Source: an uncultured Bacteroidales bacterium (GTDB taxonomy: Bacteria; Bacteroidota; Bacteroidia; Bacteroidales; UBA3824). From it: a stretch of 53,790 nucleotides of DNA. Below the pieces are notes generated by a model. The model searched no databases and was not told the DNA's origin. It saw nothing but the letters and a program-made list of their open reading frames with translations. Shown here piece by piece: positions 6,701-44,963 of this stretch; the first letter of the stretch is position 1, and each line of letters starts with the position of its first letter. The stretch is from the NCBI GenBank assembly GCA_946409405.1, contig CAMJWL010000003.1, forward strand, positions 1 to 53,790. Direction: 5' to 3'. The position numbers and the translations under genes are program-made.

Positions 6701-7072
6701 AAAATAAAAAGCCTTCCTATTATATAAGTGTCGCCGTGGCAAAATCATATCCGCCTCCGCATCCCGTGCCCAAACATCCGCGCCCGTTGCGTAAAAAAAG
6801 ATGGCGTCGTTGCTGCGAAAAACCGTGTTTTCGTGCAAATCGTTGGTGCGCGGCGCGTTGTTCACGAAAGGCAACATCCCGTCGTGATTGCCGTAAACTC
6901 TCACTTTTTGCGGGTCGGCGAATCCGAGCGACCTCAATTTTGAATACGGCAAACGATACACGCCATCGGTCTCCACGGCGACCTGCACCCATCGCCCCGT
7001 CCGCAAAACCGACTGCGCGGCACACCCCACCGCAATCAAAACGTTAATTAACAAAAAAAGGATTCGCTTCAT
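3770..7072 (-). CDS. porU: Type IX secretion system sortase PorU (C25 gingipain-like peptidase)
   Basis: 1100 aa with signal peptide; C25 motifs ITYVGHGGMKFFADERILTLSDINS and FITASCNIGHFD; C-terminal FlgD-like/T9SS segment NYPNPFTDHTGF...WDGLDNFGNRIARGVYFYRL. Confidence 0.9.
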   Translation of the reverse strand: MKRILFLLINVLIAVGCAAQSVLRTGRWVQVAVETDGVYRLPYSKLRSLGFADPQKVRVYGNHDGMLPFVNNAPRTNDLHENTVFRSNDAIFFYATGADVWARDAEADMILPRRHLYNRKAFYFLTDNDNGSDNSMPKSAYQSAGQQVTEGNFWYGHEDDLVNLTMSGRSWYGENFFYNNEQQIDFQCNAAPKSGKIITSMICRSSVKNGYTVEWGDGSGAETFEPVTSGGAYADTKQISFQCKPQNTDKQSVKITFNKKTSSAECYLDYVVINTIEPLKYNGKQLIFSYNGGGAAVNFAVNNAPNQGFAALDVTDANNPILLDSRTENGAGLFSATPSESGRYVVFDINNTPEPEYLDVIANQNLHGIKTPDYLIIAPSKFTKYAQRIKDLHPELTTEIVSNTQIYNEFSSGMTDVSAIRDFIKYLYDKNDNGRRLKYVLLFGDGSVDNITISENNPNLIPTYQSASSLNENGHSSIVSDDYFGLLGDDEGETDGGLDVAIGRLPVKNEAEAEAVVRKIAAYQKGDFTSPWRKTAAFIADDENNNVHNTQADYMAAQLEELHPEYDVRKIYIDAYKQESSATGNTYPKAREDINRLLQQGAFSITYVGHGGMKFFADERILTLSDINSAKNGARLPIFITASCNIGHFDYYERSTDKTVDSPAERLLLNPDGGAIALFTTTREVLSSPNFALSKNIQQFLYDSKADHGGAMRLGDVIRQAKLETNDYNMLSFTLLGDPAMIVPFPTKGIEVESIDGVDFDQFKDTIKAMSTHRIDLRINDLNVGASGTAWVTFYDKPSQVQTLDNDGHGAFQYEDYTTKFFSGSATVKDGKFSVKFTVPKDIDYNASNGKLSLYAVLDGGIEASGVNKKIIVGSSASNAPDDFTGPKITITTSDGKSIDGANFTVNRPSITISLSDTSGINTAGRGHDITLIIDDNNATHTLTDYYTAAKDNCNGGTISYQLPELKDGTHTLKLKAWDNLNNSNEITATFNVSGTSKFAISHLLNYPNPFTDHTGFYFEQNGVDGFIDYEITIFTMSGKIVKTLTGTLSGGESRCGPIDWDGLDNFGNRIARGVYFYRLRIRNQEGKKAMAREKLLYLR

Positions 7073-7082
7073 AAACGTAAAT

Positions 7083-7240
7083 TTCTGTGAGACAACCGCC
7101 TTGCGGCGGCTGTTGTTTTTTTTGGAACGTCAATTACCGTCAATTTTTTCGTCAATTACCATCAATTTCTTTTTAAAAAAAATTGACGGTCATTTTCGTT
7201 TAATTGACGGTAATTGACGTTTACCCCTCCGTCGCCGTAG
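7083..7240 (-). repeat. Intergenic composite element copy A (CGTCAATT inverted array plus GCAA-loop hairpin)
   Basis: Repeated CGTCAATT/AATTGACG words between cca and porU. GCAA-loop stem ACAGCCGCC-GCAA-GGCGGTTGT on the minus strand near 7092-7116. GCCGCCTACGGCGACG shared with copy B. Confidence 0.75.
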
Positions 7241-8666
7241 GCGGCGGCAACGTCTTGACCGGCGTAAGCCCGTTTTCCGCACCTTTTTGCAGCATCAATT
7301 CGCGTGCTGCGTCGAAGGTGTTTTCGATTTTGCCGTCGAGGATGGAGTCTTTGATGCAGTCTTTGATGACACCAACAAGGCGGCAGGGTTTGAGGTCGAA
7401 GGTCTCCATAATGTAATTGCCGTCGATGGGCGGCTGCCACGTGCGGCGGAAGTCCTTGGCCTCCAACTCCTTAATCTTGCGGCGGACAATCTTATAATTT
7501 TCGAGAAATTTCTTCTTTTTCTCCTCGATTTTGGAAGTGATGTCAGCCTCGCAGAGTATCATCAGGTCGTCCAAATCCTCGCCCGCGTCGTACATCAGGC
7601 GGCGCACAGCGGAATCCGAAATGTCGTCGTTGCTGATTGGAATAGCCCTGTGGTGCATCCCAACCATCTTTTGCACAAATTTCATCTTGGCGTCGAGCGG
7701 CAATTTCAATTGCTTGAACAACGCCGGCACCATCTTCGCGCCAATAAATTCGTGGCTGTGGAAAGTCCACGCGCCGTTGACGAATTTTTTGACGTTTGGC
7801 TTGGCGATGTCGTGAAACAATGCCGCCCACCGCAGCCAAATATTGTCGGACACAGCAGCCACATTGTCAAGCACTTGCATCGTGTGGAGGAAAATTTCCT
7901 TGTGTCCGCGCCCTTCCTTGACTTCGATGCCGTGGAGTCGGCAAAGTTGCGGTATGATGAGTTCGAGAAGCCCGGTCTTTTCGAGCATAATGAACGCCTG
8001 CGACGGCTTGTTGGTAGCCATCATCTTATTGAGTTCGTCGGCGATGCGCTCCATCGAAACTATCTTAATGCGCTCACAGTTGCGGGCGATGGCTTGTTCG
8101 GTTGCTTCTTCGATGCGAAATCCCAACCTGCACGCAAACCTGATTGCACGCAACATCCTCAACGGGTCGTCGGAAAAAGTTGTATCGGGTTCCAATGGCG
8201 TGCGGATGATGCCGTTGTGGAGGTCGTCGATGCCGTTGAAAGGGTCGGTCAACTCGCCAAAATTAGCCTTGTTCATCGAAATGCCCATCGCGTTGATGGT
8301 GAAGTCGCGGCGTTTTTGGTCGTCCTCGATAGTGCCGTTTTCAACAATCGGCTTGCGCGAATTGCGGTCGTAGGATTCCTTGCGAGCACCCACAAATTCG
8401 AGTTCGCAACCCTTGTAACGCAGCATTGCAGTCCCAAAATTCCTGTAAACCACCACGTCGCGCTTGCAACGGAGGTGTTCGCCCACTTTCTGCGCAAACT
8501 CGATGCCGCTGCCCGCCACCACAAAGTCGATGTCCTTGCTTGGGATGCCGAGCAGCAAATCCCTCACATAGCCACCTATAACGTATGTTTCCAAGCCGGT
8601 ACGCTCCGCCACGAGGGCGATATGCCCAAAAATCGGATTGTCCAACTTGTGCCTTAAATTAGTCAT
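7221..8666 (-). CDS. cca: CCA tRNA nucleotidyltransferase / HD domain protein
   Basis: YVIGGYVRDLLLGIPSKDIDFVV, RRDFTINAM, DPLRMLRAIRFACRLGF, and HD motif LFHDIAKP. Confidence 0.93.
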   Translation of the reverse strand: MTNLRHKLDNPIFGHIALVAERTGLETYVIGGYVRDLLLGIPSKDIDFVVAGSGIEFAQKVGEHLRCKRDVVVYRNFGTAMLRYKGCELEFVGARKESYDRNSRKPIVENGTIEDDQKRRDFTINAMGISMNKANFGELTDPFNGIDDLHNGIIRTPLEPDTTFSDDPLRMLRAIRFACRLGFRIEEATEQAIARNCERIKIVSMERIADELNKMMATNKPSQAFIMLEKTGLLELIIPQLCRLHGIEVKEGRGHKEIFLHTMQVLDNVAAVSDNIWLRWAALFHDIAKPNVKKFVNGAWTFHSHEFIGAKMVPALFKQLKLPLDAKMKFVQKMVGMHHRAIPISNDDISDSAVRRLMYDAGEDLDDLMILCEADITSKIEEKKKKFLENYKIVRRKIKELEAKDFRRTWQPPIDGNYIMETFDLKPCRLVGVIKDCIKDSILDGKIENTFDAARELMLQKGAENGLTPVKTLPPPTATEG

Positions 8667-8823
8667 AATTGTCAGTTATCGAAATAATTTGCAAAATTAG
8701 ATTAAATTTTTGTAATTTTTGTATGGATAGTTGAGTTTTTTTTGTGAAATTTGCGGCATCAAATCATCTATAGTTTTAGAACATGGCACAATGATTGCTT
8801 TTTTGATGCCATAAAGACAGAAA

Positions 8824-10305
8824 ATGAGGTTCTTGACACACATATTGGTTCTCGTAACGCTGTTAATAATTAGCAGCGCGTCCCTTCGTGCGCAGTACGT
8901 AGTGGATTGGGCGCAGACATACGGAGCCGACGGCTGGGACGAGGCAAACACCTGCATCGAACTCCGCAACGGCGACCTAATGGTAGCGGGATTCGCCAAA
9001 TTGCAGGAGAAAAACCTTTGGATTGTAAGGACGCATCCCAACGGACGTGGACGCTGGGGCAAAATTTTCGACGAATACTTCTCCTCCGCCGCCAACAGCA
9101 TGATTCAAGACACCGATTCCAACATCGTTATCACCGGCTACGCCACACGCAAGCGCGAATATCAGAGCAACCTTCTCCTTATGAAAATGGATACGGACGG
9201 CAATCTCATTTGGCAGAAAACCTTCGGCGGCGACGGTGACGAGGAAGGTTATCAGGTAATAGAATGTAAGGACGGAGGATACGCCGTGGCGGGCTTTACA
9301 AGCAGCAACCTCGATGGCGACCCAAACTGGTACATCATTAAAGTAGATCGCAACGGCAACATGCTTTGGGACCAACAGTTTGGCGGCAGCAACGACGACC
9401 GCGCCCTCGGCATAGCGCAGACATACGACGAAGGTTTTGTGGTAACGGGACACATCGGCGCAGTGGACGGCGGACGCAAACTCATGTCTATCTTAAAACT
9501 GGAAGCCGACGGCTCCGACACATGGTCGCAGTGGTATTACATCAACGACTGGTGCGCTGGCACGTCCATCATAGCCACACGAGACAGCATGATAGTGGCG
9601 GCGGGCTACACCAAGGCCTATACCATCACCGACTACGACGCATTAATAGTAAAGACAGACATGAACGGCGACACCCTTTGGACGCGCACATACGGCGACG
9701 AAGACTGGCAGGAGGCGACGGGACTGATAGAGGCATACGACAACACATACGTAATGAGCGGCTTCACGGCGTCCAACAGGAAAGACCATTCGAGTTTCCT
9801 GATGATGAAATACGACAAACGAGGCAACCTCCTATGGACGCACTCCTTCAAACGAAAAAGCCAGGACTACGCCAAGGCAATCGTGGAAACACGCGACAAC
9901 GGAATTCTATTGGCTGGCACGACCCTCTCATTTGGCAAAGGCTGGGACATGGCGGTGCTAAAAATGCAGCCCGAAGACCGCACCGATTTGTTTTTCTCCT
10001 TCCCAAGCGACACACTATCCACCACACTGCGCAAAACGTTAAACTTTGAGATGTGCCTCAATAGTTTTGGTGTGCCGATAGAAGTGCTTGTATCAGTTAA
10101 CGGCAGGGTACAGATTATCGACAACGACTTCCAGAAACTCACTGCCGAGCAACGCAAAACCGGCTGCGACTATCCCCTCTCCTACCCCGTAAGCCTCAAG
10201 CCCGGCAAAAATATCGTAAAAGTGGAAATAATTGATTATAAGAACTATACATTTTCCAAACAGATAGAAGTCTATCGACTACCAGGCTACGACTTCATCC
10301 GTTGA
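8824..10305 (+). CDS. Secreted repeat protein, beta-propeller-like, unknown function
   Basis: Signal peptide, then recurring D-x-NG-x-x-LW-x-x-TFGG and DGGYAVAGFTSS-type units. Confidence 0.65.
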   Translation: MRFLTHILVLVTLLIISSASLRAQYVVDWAQTYGADGWDEANTCIELRNGDLMVAGFAKLQEKNLWIVRTHPNGRGRWGKIFDEYFSSAANSMIQDTDSNIVITGYATRKREYQSNLLLMKMDTDGNLIWQKTFGGDGDEEGYQVIECKDGGYAVAGFTSSNLDGDPNWYIIKVDRNGNMLWDQQFGGSNDDRALGIAQTYDEGFVVTGHIGAVDGGRKLMSILKLEADGSDTWSQWYYINDWCAGTSIIATRDSMIVAAGYTKAYTITDYDALIVKTDMNGDTLWTRTYGDEDWQEATGLIEAYDNTYVMSGFTASNRKDHSSFLMMKYDKRGNLLWTHSFKRKSQDYAKAIVETRDNGILLAGTTLSFGKGWDMAVLKMQPEDRTDLFFSFPSDTLSTTLRKTLNFEMCLNSFGVPIEVLVSVNGRVQIIDNDFQKLTAEQRKTGCDYPLSYPVSLKPGKNIVKVEIIDYKNYTFSKQIEVYRLPGYDFIR

Positions 10306-14142: not shown

Positions 14143-14216
14143 GGTTTGGTAGTTCAGTTGGTTAGAATACATGCCTGTCACGCATGGGGTCGCGAGTTCG
14201 AGTCTCGTCCAGACCG
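14143..14216 (+). tRNA. tRNA-Asp (GTC)
   Basis: GGTTTGG acceptor pairs with CCAGACC; anticodon loop CTGTCAC; T-arm GTTCGAGTC; no encoded CCA. Confidence 0.95.
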
Positions 14217-14338: not shown

Positions 14339-14412
14339 GGTTTGGTAGTTCAGTTGGTTAGAATACATGCCTGTCACGCATGGGGTCGCGAGTTCGAGTC
14401 TCGTCCAGACCG
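14339..14412 (+). tRNA. tRNA-Asp (GTC), identical second copy
   Basis: Same 74-nt sequence as 14143-14216. Confidence 0.95.
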
Positions 14413-14590: not shown

Positions 14591-15592
14591 ATGACGTTAC
14601 TTGAACAAATAAGAGAAAACGCCAAGAAAGTCGGCAAGCGCATTGTGCTTCCCGAAGGCGAAGAAGAACGTACACTCAAAGCCGCCGACACTATCCTCGG
14701 CGAGGGAATCGCACAACTCGTGCTTATCGGCAATCCCGACACAATAGCCAAAGAAGCCGAGAAATTCGGCCTCAAAAACATCTCTAAGGCTACCATCGTT
14801 GATACCAAGACCTGCGACAAGAAACAGGCTTACGCCGAACTCATGGCGCAAATCCGTGCCGCCAAGGGCATGACCGTAGAGAAGGCTCTCAAACAACTCG
14901 ACAGCCCCTACTACCTTGGTACACTGATGATTAAGGCTGGCGACGCCGACGGTATGGTGGCTGGTGCTATCTGCTCCACCGCCGATACAATTCGCCCCGC
15001 GCTCCAATACATCAAGACCGCTCCTGGTATTAGCACAGTGTCAGGCGCATTCGTGGTTGTAGTTCCCAAAAAAGAGTACGGTCAGGACGGCGTGTTCCTC
15101 TTTGCCGACTGCGCTGTAACCATCGCGCCCACCGCTCAGCAACTCGCTGACATCGCGGTAATTAGCGCAAAGACAGCCAAGGATCTCACCGGCATCGACC
15201 CCAAGGTTGCAATGTTGAGCTTCTCCACCAAGGGTTCCGCTCAGAGCGACGAGGTTGACAAGGTGGTTGAGGCCACAAAACTCGCTCAGGCTGCCGCTCC
15301 CGAACTCGACATCGACGGCGAAATGCAAGCCGACGCCGCTATGGTTCAGAAGGTTGCAGACTTGAAAGCCCCTGGCAGCCACGTTGCTGGCAAGGCTAAT
15401 GTGTTGGTATTCCCGTCGTTGGAAGCCGGCAACATCGGTTACAAACTCGTTCAGCGTCTCGCAGGTGCCGACGCAGTTGGTCCCATCCTCCAAGGCATGG
15501 CCGCCCCCGTCAACGACCTCTCCCGTGGATGCTACGTTGAAGACATCATCAACATGGTGGCAATCACAGCACTCCAAGCCGCCGCAAAGTAA
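14591..15592 (+). CDS. pta: Phosphate acetyltransferase
   Basis: MTLLEQIRENAKKVGKRIVLPEGEEERTLKAA...DADGMVAGAICSTADTIRPALQ; followed by ackA. Confidence 0.95.
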   Translation: MTLLEQIRENAKKVGKRIVLPEGEEERTLKAADTILGEGIAQLVLIGNPDTIAKEAEKFGLKNISKATIVDTKTCDKKQAYAELMAQIRAAKGMTVEKALKQLDSPYYLGTLMIKAGDADGMVAGAICSTADTIRPALQYIKTAPGISTVSGAFVVVVPKKEYGQDGVFLFADCAVTIAPTAQQLADIAVISAKTAKDLTGIDPKVAMLSFSTKGSAQSDEVDKVVEATKLAQAAAPELDIDGEMQADAAMVQKVADLKAPGSHVAGKANVLVFPSLEAGNIGYKLVQRLAGADAVGPILQGMAAPVNDLSRGCYVEDIINMVAITALQAAAK

Positions 15593-15600
15593 ACATCAAT

Positions 15601-15760
15601 TGCCGCCTACGGCGACGTTTATTAACGAAAATTACCGTCAATTAAAAAAAATTTTCGTCAATTTTTAATTAAAAAAAATTTTCGATAATTGACGATAAAT
15701 TCACGGTAATTTTCGTTTAGAAATCCAACGCCGCAAGGCTTTGAAAACAACAAAAATTTA
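15601..15760 (+). repeat. Intergenic composite element copy B (pta/ackA)
   Basis: GCCGCCTACGGCGACG hairpin; AACGAAAATTACCGTCAATT ... AATTCACGGTAATTTTCGTTT inverted arms; GCAA-loop hairpin CAACGCC-GCAA-GGCTTTG at 15726-15743. Confidence 0.75.
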
Positions 15761-15776
15761 CGTTACATAACAAAAA

Positions 15777-16979
15777 ATGAAGATATTAGTAATCAATTGC
15801 GGTAGTTCGTCGTTGAAGTACCAACTCATTGATATGCCGTCGGGCGACGTGCTTGCAAAAGGCGGCGTTGAAAAAATCGGCATGGCGGATTCGTTCCTCA
15901 AATGCGCCAAGGGCGACGGCCCCAAGACCCGCATCGACAAGCCGATGAACGACCATCAGGACGCTATCGAACTCGTCCTCAACACTTTGACCGACAAGAA
16001 TCTCGGCGTTATCTCCTCGCTCAGCGAGATTGAGGCTGCCGGACACCGCGTACTCCACGGCGGCGAATTTTTCAAGGAGAGCGTCATCATCAACGACGAC
16101 GTTATCGCCAAGATTGAAGAAATTGCGCCCCTCGGTCCCCTCCACCAGATGGCAAACCTCAAAGGCATCCGCGCCATGAAGAAAGCAATGCCCTCGCTCC
16201 CGCAGGTGGCAGTGTTTGATACGGCATTCCATCAGACCATCCCCGACTACGCTTATATGTACGCAATTCCCTACGAATTGTACGAAAAACTCCATATCCG
16301 CCGTTATGGTTTCCACGGCACAAGCCACAGGTACGTCTCCAAACGCGCCTGCGAAATCCTCGGTCTCGACTACAACAACTCCAAACTCATCACCTGCCAC
16401 ATCGGCAACGGCGCGTCTTTGGCGGCTATCGTCAACGGCAAGGTGGTTGACACATCGATGGGCTTGACCCCGTGCGAAGGCGTTGTGATGGGCACTCGCT
16501 GCGGCGTTATCGACCCCGCCGTGTTCCCGTACCTGTTTGAAAACGGCGCGTTGAAACCCGAAGATATGAACAACTTCATCAACAAGCAATCTGGCGTTTT
16601 GGGCGTTTCGGGCGTTTCGTCGGATATGCGCGATGTGGAGGAGGCAGCATTTGTCCGCAAGGAATACCGCGCCGCCCTCGCCTGCAAGATGCAGGATTAC
16701 AGCATCAAGAAGTACATCGGCGCATACATGGCAGCGATGAACGGTTGCGACGCCATCGTATTCTGCGGCGGCATCGGCGAGAAGGGCGACACCACACGTC
16801 GCGGCGTTGCCATGAACTTGGAGTGGCTCGGCGTGGAGTTTGACGACACCATCAACACCGGTCTCCGCGACAAGGAAATGGTTATCAGCAAGCCGACATC
16901 GAAGGTGAAGGTCGTAGTAGTGCCCACAAACGAGGAACTCGTAATCGCACAGGACACCCTCGACTTGGTAAAACGATAA
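15777..16979 (+). CDS. ackA: Acetate kinase
   Basis: MKILVINCGSSSLKYQLID, RRYGFHGTSHRYVS, HIGNGASLAAI, VFCGGIGEKG. Confidence 0.97.
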   Translation: MKILVINCGSSSLKYQLIDMPSGDVLAKGGVEKIGMADSFLKCAKGDGPKTRIDKPMNDHQDAIELVLNTLTDKNLGVISSLSEIEAAGHRVLHGGEFFKESVIINDDVIAKIEEIAPLGPLHQMANLKGIRAMKKAMPSLPQVAVFDTAFHQTIPDYAYMYAIPYELYEKLHIRRYGFHGTSHRYVSKRACEILGLDYNNSKLITCHIGNGASLAAIVNGKVVDTSMGLTPCEGVVMGTRCGVIDPAVFPYLFENGALKPEDMNNFINKQSGVLGVSGVSSDMRDVEEAAFVRKEYRAALACKMQDYSIKKYIGAYMAAMNGCDAIVFCGGIGEKGDTTRRGVAMNLEWLGVEFDDTINTGLRDKEMVISKPTSKVKVVVVPTNEELVIAQDTLDLVKR

Positions 16980-16989
16980 TTTTTTCAAC

Positions 16990-17074
16990 GCGAATTAAAG
17001 CGAATTATAACGAATTTTAGACGAATTACCCAAAAATGATTCGCTTTAATTCGTTGTAATTCGTTTTAATTTTT
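16990..17074. repeat. Inverted array of 10-bp-phased CGAATT words
   Basis: CGAATTAAAG CGAATTATAA CGAATTTTAG aCGAATTACC, facing ATTCGCTTTA ATTCGTTGTA ATTCGTTTTA. Confidence 0.85.
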
Positions 17075-17100
17075 GTTTTTTTTAAAATCCGACACCGTAG

Positions 17101-36910: not shown

Positions 36911-38559
36911 GCCGCGATATACTCGTTGTATCTCGTTATCAGCGCGTTATAAAACATCTTTGCAATAGCGTTTGCGCCGGCTGGATTAAAATGCACAAAA
37001 TCCTTCTCGGCAAGCGGCGGGTCGTGGAAAACCCAATCGGGCATGGTGTTGAGGCCGCCCATAGCCTCGTACATGTCCCAATATGCGCAGTCGTTTTGGA
37101 GGGCGGCAGATTTGAGCAACTCCACCACTGTCGGCAAAATCGGGTAAGTTTCGTACCTGTCCTCCACCTTGATGCTCATGTCGGCGGGACCAATCACGAT
37201 AATCGACACGCCCGGACAAATCCGCCGCAAAAACCTAATCTGCGCCGCAAAATAATTATTGAACGCGCCTACATTATCCTCGTTTAGCCCAGGTATCGCG
37301 TTGCCGCCAAACTGCAATATGATGCACTTGACGTTGAGATCCCTGTACATCGAGCCGAGATGCACACCGTTCATTTTTACGAAAATTGTACCCGAACATC
37401 CGCGCAAAGCCACATTGTCAACCGCCACGCCGCTCAGTCCGTCCATCGCAAATGCGTAAAACTCAGGACTATCCGCGCCCGCAAACTCCATGCGGAAATT
37501 TTCGGGAGTCTGCGCAAAATTCCACGTCTTGACGGCGTAGAAATCGTTTGGCATCAGCGAATCGGCGTACAAAATATGCTCGCCGTCCATCACGCGCACG
37601 CTGCAAGGCTTGGTGTGGTTGCCATAAAACATACGTACCCTCTTGATTGTCTTGGAGTTGCCATATCCGTACTTAAACGGCACAAAATCCAACGAGGCGT
37701 GATAAATCTTTTCGGGTACGGCAGGTTTTGGCGGCACATAGTCGGGGATTTTTGGGATTGCAACAGAATCCGCAGATGCCACCGCCGCAGAATCCGAGTC
37801 GGAAGGCTGCGATATTTGCGGCGAAAGTTTTGGCTCTTCCTTGGGCGGCAGGTTTACAATCGGCGAAAACTTGCCAAACGCCGCCAACGCACCATATTTA
37901 GAATGGTGGACGGCGGTGTCGATAAACGGGAAAATCGTGTAACGCTGCCAGTTGCCGGTACAAATCACCTCGCACGGGGCTTTGTAGTCGTAGGCGGTTT
38001 TGGCGGGGATAAGGCCAGGCCCTGAACCGCCAAATTGCTGTTGGAATTTGTAACGGAGATAGCCGCTAATCCTGTCAGCCTCTATCTGCGAATCGCCATA
38101 ATGCAAAATCCGGACTACCTTGGCAAGTTCGTTGGGATTAGTCAAAGCGTCAAAAAGATTTCTAAGGCATCCGATGCCAGACGCGGGGAGTTCCAACGGT
38201 TGGCGGATTTCTTCTACATTGATTGGGCGCGGCTTAAAATTATACACCGACGAATCAAAAGTGGGTACGCCGCTCATATCCGAAACTTGCAATGTTTCAG
38301 TGGGTTGTATGTTAACAACGGTGTCAATTACCACAACCATCCCGTCCTGTCTGTCCTCCTCCACGAGGTCGGGAATAAAGGCGTTGCCAGAGGACGTATT
38401 TTGTAGCAGTCCGTCGTCCCGCCACCATTCTGAGAACCGAGGAAATTGCAACGTCAAATCCTTAGACACACTGATTCCCTCTTTTGGAAATATCGTCATC
38501 AATATCGCCAAAAGCCCCATGACCGCAATCATGAATAGAAGTGTGGCTAACGGTTTCAT
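36901..38559 (-). CDS. Membrane-anchored SGNH hydrolase family protein
   Basis: N-terminal TM; ILHYGDSQIEADRISGYLRYKFQQQFGGSGPG; IIVIGPADMS; DFVHFNPAGAN. Confidence 0.8.
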   Translation of the reverse strand: MKPLATLLFMIAVMGLLAILMTIFPKEGISVSKDLTLQFPRFSEWWRDDGLLQNTSSGNAFIPDLVEEDRQDGMVVVIDTVVNIQPTETLQVSDMSGVPTFDSSVYNFKPRPINVEEIRQPLELPASGIGCLRNLFDALTNPNELAKVVRILHYGDSQIEADRISGYLRYKFQQQFGGSGPGLIPAKTAYDYKAPCEVICTGNWQRYTIFPFIDTAVHHSKYGALAAFGKFSPIVNLPPKEEPKLSPQISQPSDSDSAAVASADSVAIPKIPDYVPPKPAVPEKIYHASLDFVPFKYGYGNSKTIKRVRMFYGNHTKPCSVRVMDGEHILYADSLMPNDFYAVKTWNFAQTPENFRMEFAGADSPEFYAFAMDGLSGVAVDNVALRGCSGTIFVKMNGVHLGSMYRDLNVKCIILQFGGNAIPGLNEDNVGAFNNYFAAQIRFLRRICPGVSIIVIGPADMSIKVEDRYETYPILPTVVELLKSAALQNDCAYWDMYEAMGGLNTMPDWVFHDPPLAEKDFVHFNPAGANAIAKMFYNALITRYNEYIAARK

Positions 38560-38570
38560 CTATTATTTTC

Positions 38571-38640
38571 GATTTGTTGATTTGTTGATTTGTTGATTTG
38601 TTGATTTGTTGATTTGTTGATTTATTGATTTATTGATTTT
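38571..38640. repeat. Octanucleotide microsatellite (GATTTGTT)6(GATTTATT)2
   Basis: Eight consecutive 8-nt units plus a partial unit, ending 12 nt from the SGNH start codon. Confidence 0.96.
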
Positions 38641-38644
38641 CGTT

Positions 38645-38679
38645 TTCCTCGTTCCTCTTTCCTCATTCCTCTCTCCTCA
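38645..38679 (-). repeat. Purine-rich GAGGAA-word array just after the mltD stop
   Basis: Reverse strand: GAGGAGAGAGGAATGAGGAAAGAGGAACGAGGAAAA. Confidence 0.85.
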
Positions 38680-43895: not shown

Positions 43896-44747
43896 ATGAG
43901 AATTATTGAAAATCAAGAGTTTGGCGGCGAGCGTCCGTTGTATCGTGCGGCGGATACAACGCTGAGAAACGTTACAATACACGTGGGCGAATCGGCGTTG
44001 AAGGAGACGCGAAACATCACCGCCATCGACTGCACTTTTGAAGGCAAATATCCGTTTTGGATAACGGACGGATTCAACGTGCAGCACTGCCGTTTTACAC
44101 CCGGAGCGCGGGCGGCGTTGTGGTATTCCAACGACCTTGTGATGACCGATTCCATCATCGACGCGCCCAAGATGTTTCGCGACAGCCGACGCCTCCACCT
44201 CCAAAACGTGCAACTCACCGACGCGCAGGAGACTTTTTGGCACTGCGACGACATCACGATAGACAATGTGCAGACCAACAATGCGCCGTACATCTTTATG
44301 CACTGCAACAACGTGAAAATCAGCAATTACACCCAAAACGGCAACTATGGGTTCCAATACTGCAAAAACATCGAAATCCGCAATTCAAAGATTTACTCGA
44401 AGGACGCATTTTGGAACAGCGAAAACATCACCGTCTATGATTCGGAAATCATTGGCGAATACCTCGCTTGGCACAGCAAAAATGTCCGCCTTGTCAATTG
44501 CTTAATCGGTGAGACACAGCCACTTTGCTACTGCGACAACCTTGTGTTGGAAAATTGCCGTCTGCGCGAGGATGCCGACTTGGCTTTTGAATATTCGGAG
44601 GTCAATGCCACCATCAACGGCCATATCACAAGCATCAAAAACCCCCGCACAGGCATCATAAAAGCGGATTCCGTCGGCGCAATCATCATCGACGAAAACA
44701 TCAAACCGCCCGCCGATTGTGTGATAACGACAACGACAAACGCCTGA
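43896..44747 (+). CDS. DUF3737 family right-handed beta-helix protein
   Basis: MRIIENQEFGGERPLYRAADTTLRNVTIHVGESALKETRNI and many NITIDNVQ/NIEIRNSKIY turns. Confidence 0.88.
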   Translation: MRIIENQEFGGERPLYRAADTTLRNVTIHVGESALKETRNITAIDCTFEGKYPFWITDGFNVQHCRFTPGARAALWYSNDLVMTDSIIDAPKMFRDSRRLHLQNVQLTDAQETFWHCDDITIDNVQTNNAPYIFMHCNNVKISNYTQNGNYGFQYCKNIEIRNSKIYSKDAFWNSENITVYDSEIIGEYLAWHSKNVRLVNCLIGETQPLCYCDNLVLENCRLREDADLAFEYSEVNATINGHITSIKNPRTGIIKADSVGAIIIDENIKPPADCVITTTTNA

Positions 44748-44770
44748 CGGCGTTTGCTATTTTTTTTTAA
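44738..44770 (+). terminator. Intrinsic terminator overlapping the DUF3737 stop codon
   Basis: CAAACGCC-TGAC-GGCGTTTG stem followed by CTATTTTTTTTT; stop TGA lies in the loop. Confidence 0.8.
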
Positions 44771-44955
44771 ACGAAAATTACCGTCAATTTTATAAAAATT
44801 ACCGTCAATTTTTTTGTTAATTGTAATAAAAATTATCGTCAATTTTTTTTTGTTATTAGCGAAAAATTGACGATAATTGACGAATAAATTCACGGTAATT
44901 TTCGTTTCTAAAAAACAACTGCCGCAAGGCAGTTACAAACAACAAATTAACGTTT
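44770..44955 (+). repeat. Intergenic composite element copy C (DUF3737/patB)
   Basis: AACGAAAATTACCGTCAATT ... AAATTCACGGTAATTTTCGTTT arms, inner CGTCAATT words, perfect hairpin AACTGCC-GCAA-GGCAGTT at 44917-44934. Confidence 0.78.
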
Positions 44956-44963
44956 AGAAAAAA

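Follow-up and report, generated by a model that had tools for sequence, protein, structure and literature searches.

BOX elements of Streptococcus pneumoniae are dispersed, intergenic, MITE-like and folded, combine fixed ends with variable interior modules and occur in few close species, and SPRITE elements of the same bacterium resemble intrinsic terminators and lie close to gene 3′ ends (PMC3049150). The ERIC, Correia and RUP MITEs of enterobacteria, Neisseria and pneumococcus are shorter than about 200 bp, A+T-rich and intergenic, with TA ends and long stem-loop transcripts (PMC2229807). Within the order Bacteroidales, BrickBuilt of Porphyromonas gingivalis is an intergenic MITE of limited host range, with 19 copies and internal repeats of about two helical turns (PMC4596501). 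REP and BIME elements are palindromes, paired in opposite orientation, that lie between cistrons at the 3′ ends of genes. An mRNA that carries an ERIC, Correia or REP element is altered in its partial termination, cleavage or stability.

Each of these kinds resembles in part a family of about 50 intergenic palindromic copies in a 3.56-Mb genome of a rumen Bacteroidales bacterium, including three (copies A, B and C) in the window, the stretch of 53,790 nucleotides analysed here. The family matches bacterial MITEs as reviewed (PMC2229807, PMC10969869), being short, non-coding and A+T-rich, with many dispersed copies and terminal inverted repeats. Its construction is nevertheless distinct, as BOX is composed of boxA-B-C modules and SPRITE of one 18-bp duplex plus a T-rich tract (PMC3049150), whereas here two facing hairpins surround a large palindrome and frame interchangeable arms of AATT words. 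Unlike ERIC, Correia and RUP, the family belongs to Bacteroidales, has GC hairpins just inside its ends and often shares its terminus with a neighbor's stop codon. We know of no sequence relation between BOX and this family. BrickBuilt, which has promoter activity, consists of 1-23 direct 23-nt tandem repeats together with a long leader and tail (PMC4596501), whereas the repeats here are inverted, without a long leader or tail, and no promoter box is seen. In contrast to REP and BIME, no Y1/REP-associated (RAYT-type) transposase (PF01797) was found in this genome, which is 88% complete, in a search whose controls worked. The kind of element is known but this family is itself undescribed; no description was found in the open-access literature searched, which is not proof of absence.

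The initial annotation had described three copies of one ordered layout, and every part of that layout was found where it had been placed at junctions A, B and C. Word searches and BLAST, however, recovered further copies in this genome. The sequence AATTACCGTCAATT has 93 exact matches genome-wide and 149 at no more than one mismatch, against 0 for its reversed control, and copy C as a BLAST query returned 103 pieces at about 45 places, nearly all of which were retrieved and had every junction read. Because a further 764 kb from other large contigs of the same genome contained no element cluster, we consider the site list nearly complete at about 50. Median identity between copies is only about 67%, which argues against a recent burst of copying.

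The layout of the element is TA-AACGtnAATT, a GC hairpin with its T-run, AACGAAAATTACCGTCAATTttttCGTCAATTACCGTCAATT, a spacer, the inverted arm, an A-run with a GC hairpin, and AATTnaCGTT-TA; the consensus runs CCGCCTTGCGGCGG, T-run, AACGAAAATTACCGTCAATTTTTTCGTCAATTACCGTCAATT, AT-rich centre, AATTGACGGTAATTGACGAAAAAATTGACGGTAATTTTCGTT, A-run and CGCCGTAGGCGGCG, and CCGCCTTGCGGCGG occurs 15 times in element loci and never in the 764-kb background. Elements are about 110-220 bp long and measure 63-169 bp from arm to arm, and at each end the T-run of the GC hairpin faces inward. The two arms are AT-rich (29.5% GC), with two double words each, and are built of AATT words at 10- and 12-bp steps (159 pairs at 10 bp, 52 at 12 bp and 97 at 22 bp), the two steps together making a 22-bp composite of about two helical turns. 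The whole is an imperfect, nested inverted repeat that reads alike on both strands. The co-oriented layout first described is thus mostly illusory, since the unit has a hairpin at each end and no real orientation; it appeared because a symmetric element was viewed between three tandem gene pairs. Similarly, the AAATTTACGTT stretch that had been taken as a signal before the start codon is the element terminus: the outer word AACGtnAATT lies beyond the hairpins in 29 of 53 outer flanks (55%), compared with 6.5% of AT-rich background windows, and many of these words, read by eye, are preceded by TA.

Copy A has a terminus TA-AACGTAAATT at 7072-7083, which overlaps the start codon of porU (minus strand) and was placed from the sequence and from the enrichment of outer words beside family hairpins. 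The porU-side hairpin ACAGCCGCC-GCAA-GGCGGTTGT follows at 7092-7113 on the minus strand, folding with a 9-bp stem and showing a TTGC loop and T-run on the plus strand. The arms AACGTCAATTACCGTCAATT... and ...AATTGACGGTAATTGACGTT at 7126-7221, defined by repeat search, folding and genome-wide words, form a 20-nt perfect inverted repeat of AATT-phased words around an AT-rich centre. The outer hairpin CCGCCGCC-TAC-GGCGACGG (about 7229-7247, minus strand) falls within the reading frame of cca, a short way ahead of the stop codon, and extends past the end of 7240 first assigned to the copy. The C-terminal tail of cca (window 7221-7250) is encoded by the repeat hairpin and relatives differ there, and annotators should be aware that such tails derive from repeat sequence.

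In copy B, the TAA within the terminus TA-AACATCAATT (15590-15601; sequence, outer-word and stop-codon counts) is the pta stop codon. It is followed by the first GC hairpin at 15600-15615 (plus strand; sequence and hairpin scoring), the arms AACGAAAATTACCGTCAATT... and ...GGTAATTTTCGTT at 15624-15718 (repeat search and folding), the GCAA hairpin CAACGCC-GCAA-GGCTTTG at 15724-15745 (plus strand; sequence and hairpin scoring) and, before ackA, a second terminus AATTTACGTT-A at 15755-15765 (sequence and outer-word count). The first GC hairpin of copy C, AAACGCC-TGAC-GGCGTTT at 44738-44755 (plus strand; sequence, folding and stop-codon count), holds the TGA stop of the upstream gene. Its arms contain an extra word repeat (44770-44907; repeat search and folding) and lead to the GCAA hairpin AACTGCC-GCAA-GGCAGTT at 44917-44934 (plus strand; folding) and the second terminus AATTAACGTT-TA at 44945-44956 (sequence and outer-word count), before patB.

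Junctions A, B and C fold markedly better than dinucleotide shuffles (z-scores of -10.8, -5.5 and -10.1, respectively). The GCAA loop, however, is not invariant as had been stated: in T-run orientation it reads TTGC and is the commonest loop, found in 25 of 57 scored hairpins, the rest having TAC, TGAC and others. The proposed selection on stem structure is supported, as the fifth stem pair of 24 hairpins picked by the core CCTTGCGG alone varies (CG 14, AT 8, TA 1, GC 1) yet is always paired, compared with 50% in shuffles; because the copies are related, this count indicates that pairing is maintained but does not amount to a formal R-scape test. The hairpins have the form of intrinsic terminators, a GC-rich stem followed by a T-run. 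Nevertheless, we rejected the idea that they are generic terminators of the genome, since the 764-kb background holds only 18 terminator-like hairpin records, none with a TTGC loop, and the hairpins are thus a feature of the element.

Placement relative to genes was scored on simple longest-ORF calls, which limit the placement, stop-codon and promoter counts alike. Elements occur in convergent gaps as well as between tandem genes of either strand. Tandem gaps account for 26 of the 41 scored sites, convergent gaps for 11 and divergent gaps for 4, of which one or more rests on a doubtful gene call; the background gaps number 177, 39 and 64, respectively. Nearby stop codons are TAA in 38 of 48 cases, many within about 50 bp of the arms, and TAA followed by AC(G/A) was found at 13 of the 48 stops beside elements versus 10 of 578 in the background (p = 4e-10). 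These flanking stops frequently fall on the TA(A)ACG terminus itself, such that the ACG or ACA after the TAA is the element's own. The box TAnnTTTG is the -7 box of Bacteroidota. Only 4 of 26 genes whose start faces an element have it within 200 bp, versus 89 of 163 (p = 2e-4). The downstream genes therefore lack the usual promoter box, which suggests that copies mostly occupy gaps between cistrons or the 3′ ends of genes.

The spread of the family is patchy and clade-limited, confined to a small set of related rumen bacteria. Of the 84,980 species genomes in GTDB r220, only four others contain the exact paired words, all Bacteroidales: RGIG6546, RGIG10068 and RGIG1595, named as ruminant samples, and UBA3824. 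The pattern is absent from the remaining genomes of that release and from viral contigs, and a phage or virus origin was rejected for want of a viral match. Within the genus, elements are abundant in 4 of 18 members checked, with dozens of words each in G007, G010 and G011, and number one to a few in three others (G014, G016 and G017); G001 has a single match, in coding-like sequence, and most other members checked have no words. A genus-wide feature was rejected as well, as 326 kb of G002 is without such arrays, though a few matches to the sister word family described below occur there.

Comparison of orthologous sites shows insertion polymorphism. More than 12 sites are filled in both species compared, but the L043/L147 site is filled here and cleanly empty in G010, where TTTTTGTC-TA-AACGAG...GTCGT-TA-GAATTTC corresponds to TTTTCGTC-TA-AAATTTC, as fits a TA duplication. 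Conversely, G011 carries an element at the L106/L068 site where this genome is empty; no clear TA is seen there and the junction fits overlap of a T-run, so the duplication is clean at only one of the two empty sites. The pta/ackA junction is likewise polymorphic across the genus: in seven of eight more distant species read it is short, without hairpin or array, and in G008 it aligns with a short gap. In G011, copy C is halved and L049 is down to one hairpin. The family provides a marker, with sites in close species distinguishable as filled, empty, collapsed or interior-swapped.

The interior-swapped state involves a sister word family, type II. A type II element lies at 16969-17095, directly 3′ of ackA, whose TAA stop falls inside the element's terminal word; its arms are built of CGAATT words at 10-12 bp spacing, and the hairpin CACC-GTA-GGTG stands just beyond (read from the sequence). 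Type II matches number 28 in this genome, 66 in G010 and few in G002, G004 and G005, in counts that take both strands of one palindrome and so exceed site numbers, and species therefore differ in their mixture of word families. At pta/ackA in G010 and G007, both hairpins are kept around CGAATT arms and another nested repeat, and L230, compared with L054, combines the two word families as a mosaic within the same hairpins. A further dispersed repeat of about 110 bp, with hairpins GTCC-TTGC-GGAC and TCGCGAAGCGA (L040:4990-5360; L079/L148, the pta/ackA site in G010), is nested inside elements of either family.

We propose, with a probability of roughly 0.7, that these copies are an undescribed family of non-autonomous, MITE-like palindromic repeats. 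A mobile intergenic repeat was one of two options in the initial annotation, and it is favored by the copy number, the patchy, clade-limited spread, the empty orthologous sites and the TA-flanked termini. Hypothetically, the family spread by copying into TA targets through an unseen transposase. The candidates tried as mobilizer were rejected: neither Y1 nor an IS630-type transposase (PF13358; searched in this genome, 88% complete, and six relatives) was found, and DDE_Tnp_1 (PF01609) matches in G010 and G011 lack ends matching the element. Rpn (PF12784) was rejected as an autonomous partner or general source, as it has 15 matches in the genome, of which just the C118 and C49 genes are flanked by family words. 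We hypothesize that a TA target joined to an AACG terminus would recreate TAA, so that insertion at a stop codon would leave the protein intact, and that copies survive beside stop codons because TAA is restored and promoters are avoided. Most copies would then sit inside operon transcripts, where the element is predicted to fold as hairpin, long AU stem and hairpin, three stem-loops in all, and may alter how the joined mRNA is partially terminated, cleaved or stabilized.

The other option of the initial annotation would make the copies structured 5′ leaders or riboregulators acting on the gene downstream. In its favor, copies A-C each lie shortly upstream of a start codon and fold well. Placement largely refutes it, and we regard it as very improbable: start-codon distance varies widely, the neighboring genes are diverse, no gene lies downstream of a copy in a convergent gap, promoter boxes are depleted, and an Rfam search of the window matched two tRNAs only and none of the elements. 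A stronger contender, though still a doubtful one, is that the copies are bidirectional intrinsic terminator cassettes whose inward-facing hairpins stop transcription from both sides and which spread by insulating genes. SPRITE is a precedent (PMC3049150), a hairpin and T-run stand at both element ends, nearby stops are mostly TAA and often close to the arms, convergent sites are over-represented and few other terminator-like hairpins exist in the genome. Most scored sites, however, lie between tandem genes such as pta and ackA, and with a promoter box so rare within 200 bp of the genes behind them, full termination would silence those genes; a role at 3′ ends is possible as a secondary one.

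The regularity of the arms invites another explanation, namely that they are a binding-site array for a putative DNA-binding or nucleoid protein, kept by selection and not by transposition. The AATT words are symmetrical, strongly regular in spacing and on one helical face (10 + 12 bp in a 22-bp repeat), and a solo palindrome lies upstream of Rpn-type genes in G000 and G017, near the promoter. We nonetheless think it unlikely, because the words at a given site vary with the sister family, and one protein would not be expected to bind both sets, and because hairpins and termini are also common to the copies, neither of which a binding site needs. More speculative still is a modular element whose constant hairpin frames and TA(A)ACG termini carry helically phased AATT arrays that can be exchanged for one another (CGTCAATT, CGAATT and AAAGAATT "dialects"). 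A separate protein would read each array, with a possible tie to the Rpn-type nuclease genes that have the solo palindrome upstream, and arrays would be swapped at a fixed site rather than moved whole. We hold this to be quite improbable as a whole, yet the exchange of interiors between word families inside constant hairpins is neither explained nor predicted by simple MITE transposition. The MITE-like family that we favor accounts for a feature that recurs in these rumen genomes, and suggests a style of insertion that spares proteins by recreating the stop codon.

Rpn-type nuclease genes, and likewise an antitoxin/RelE-like pair, have the solo palindrome AAATTACCGTCAATTT...AAATTGACGGTAATTTTTGTTTATAAG immediately ahead of a promoter-like box (L065:2791-3797 and 8074-9147; L050:4134-4202; G017 L214 and L216), which holds in a species with few full elements as well. 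Elsewhere in the window, positions 1-2850 are a large repetitive stretch with coding-like 66-69 bp repeats and a 924-bp duplication, and a tandem 8-bp repeat, TTGTTGAT.., at 38558-38647 upstream of a minus-strand gene may be a length-variable tract. The two tRNA genes, at 14143-14216 and 14339-14412, are in close tandem and have equal Rfam scores.
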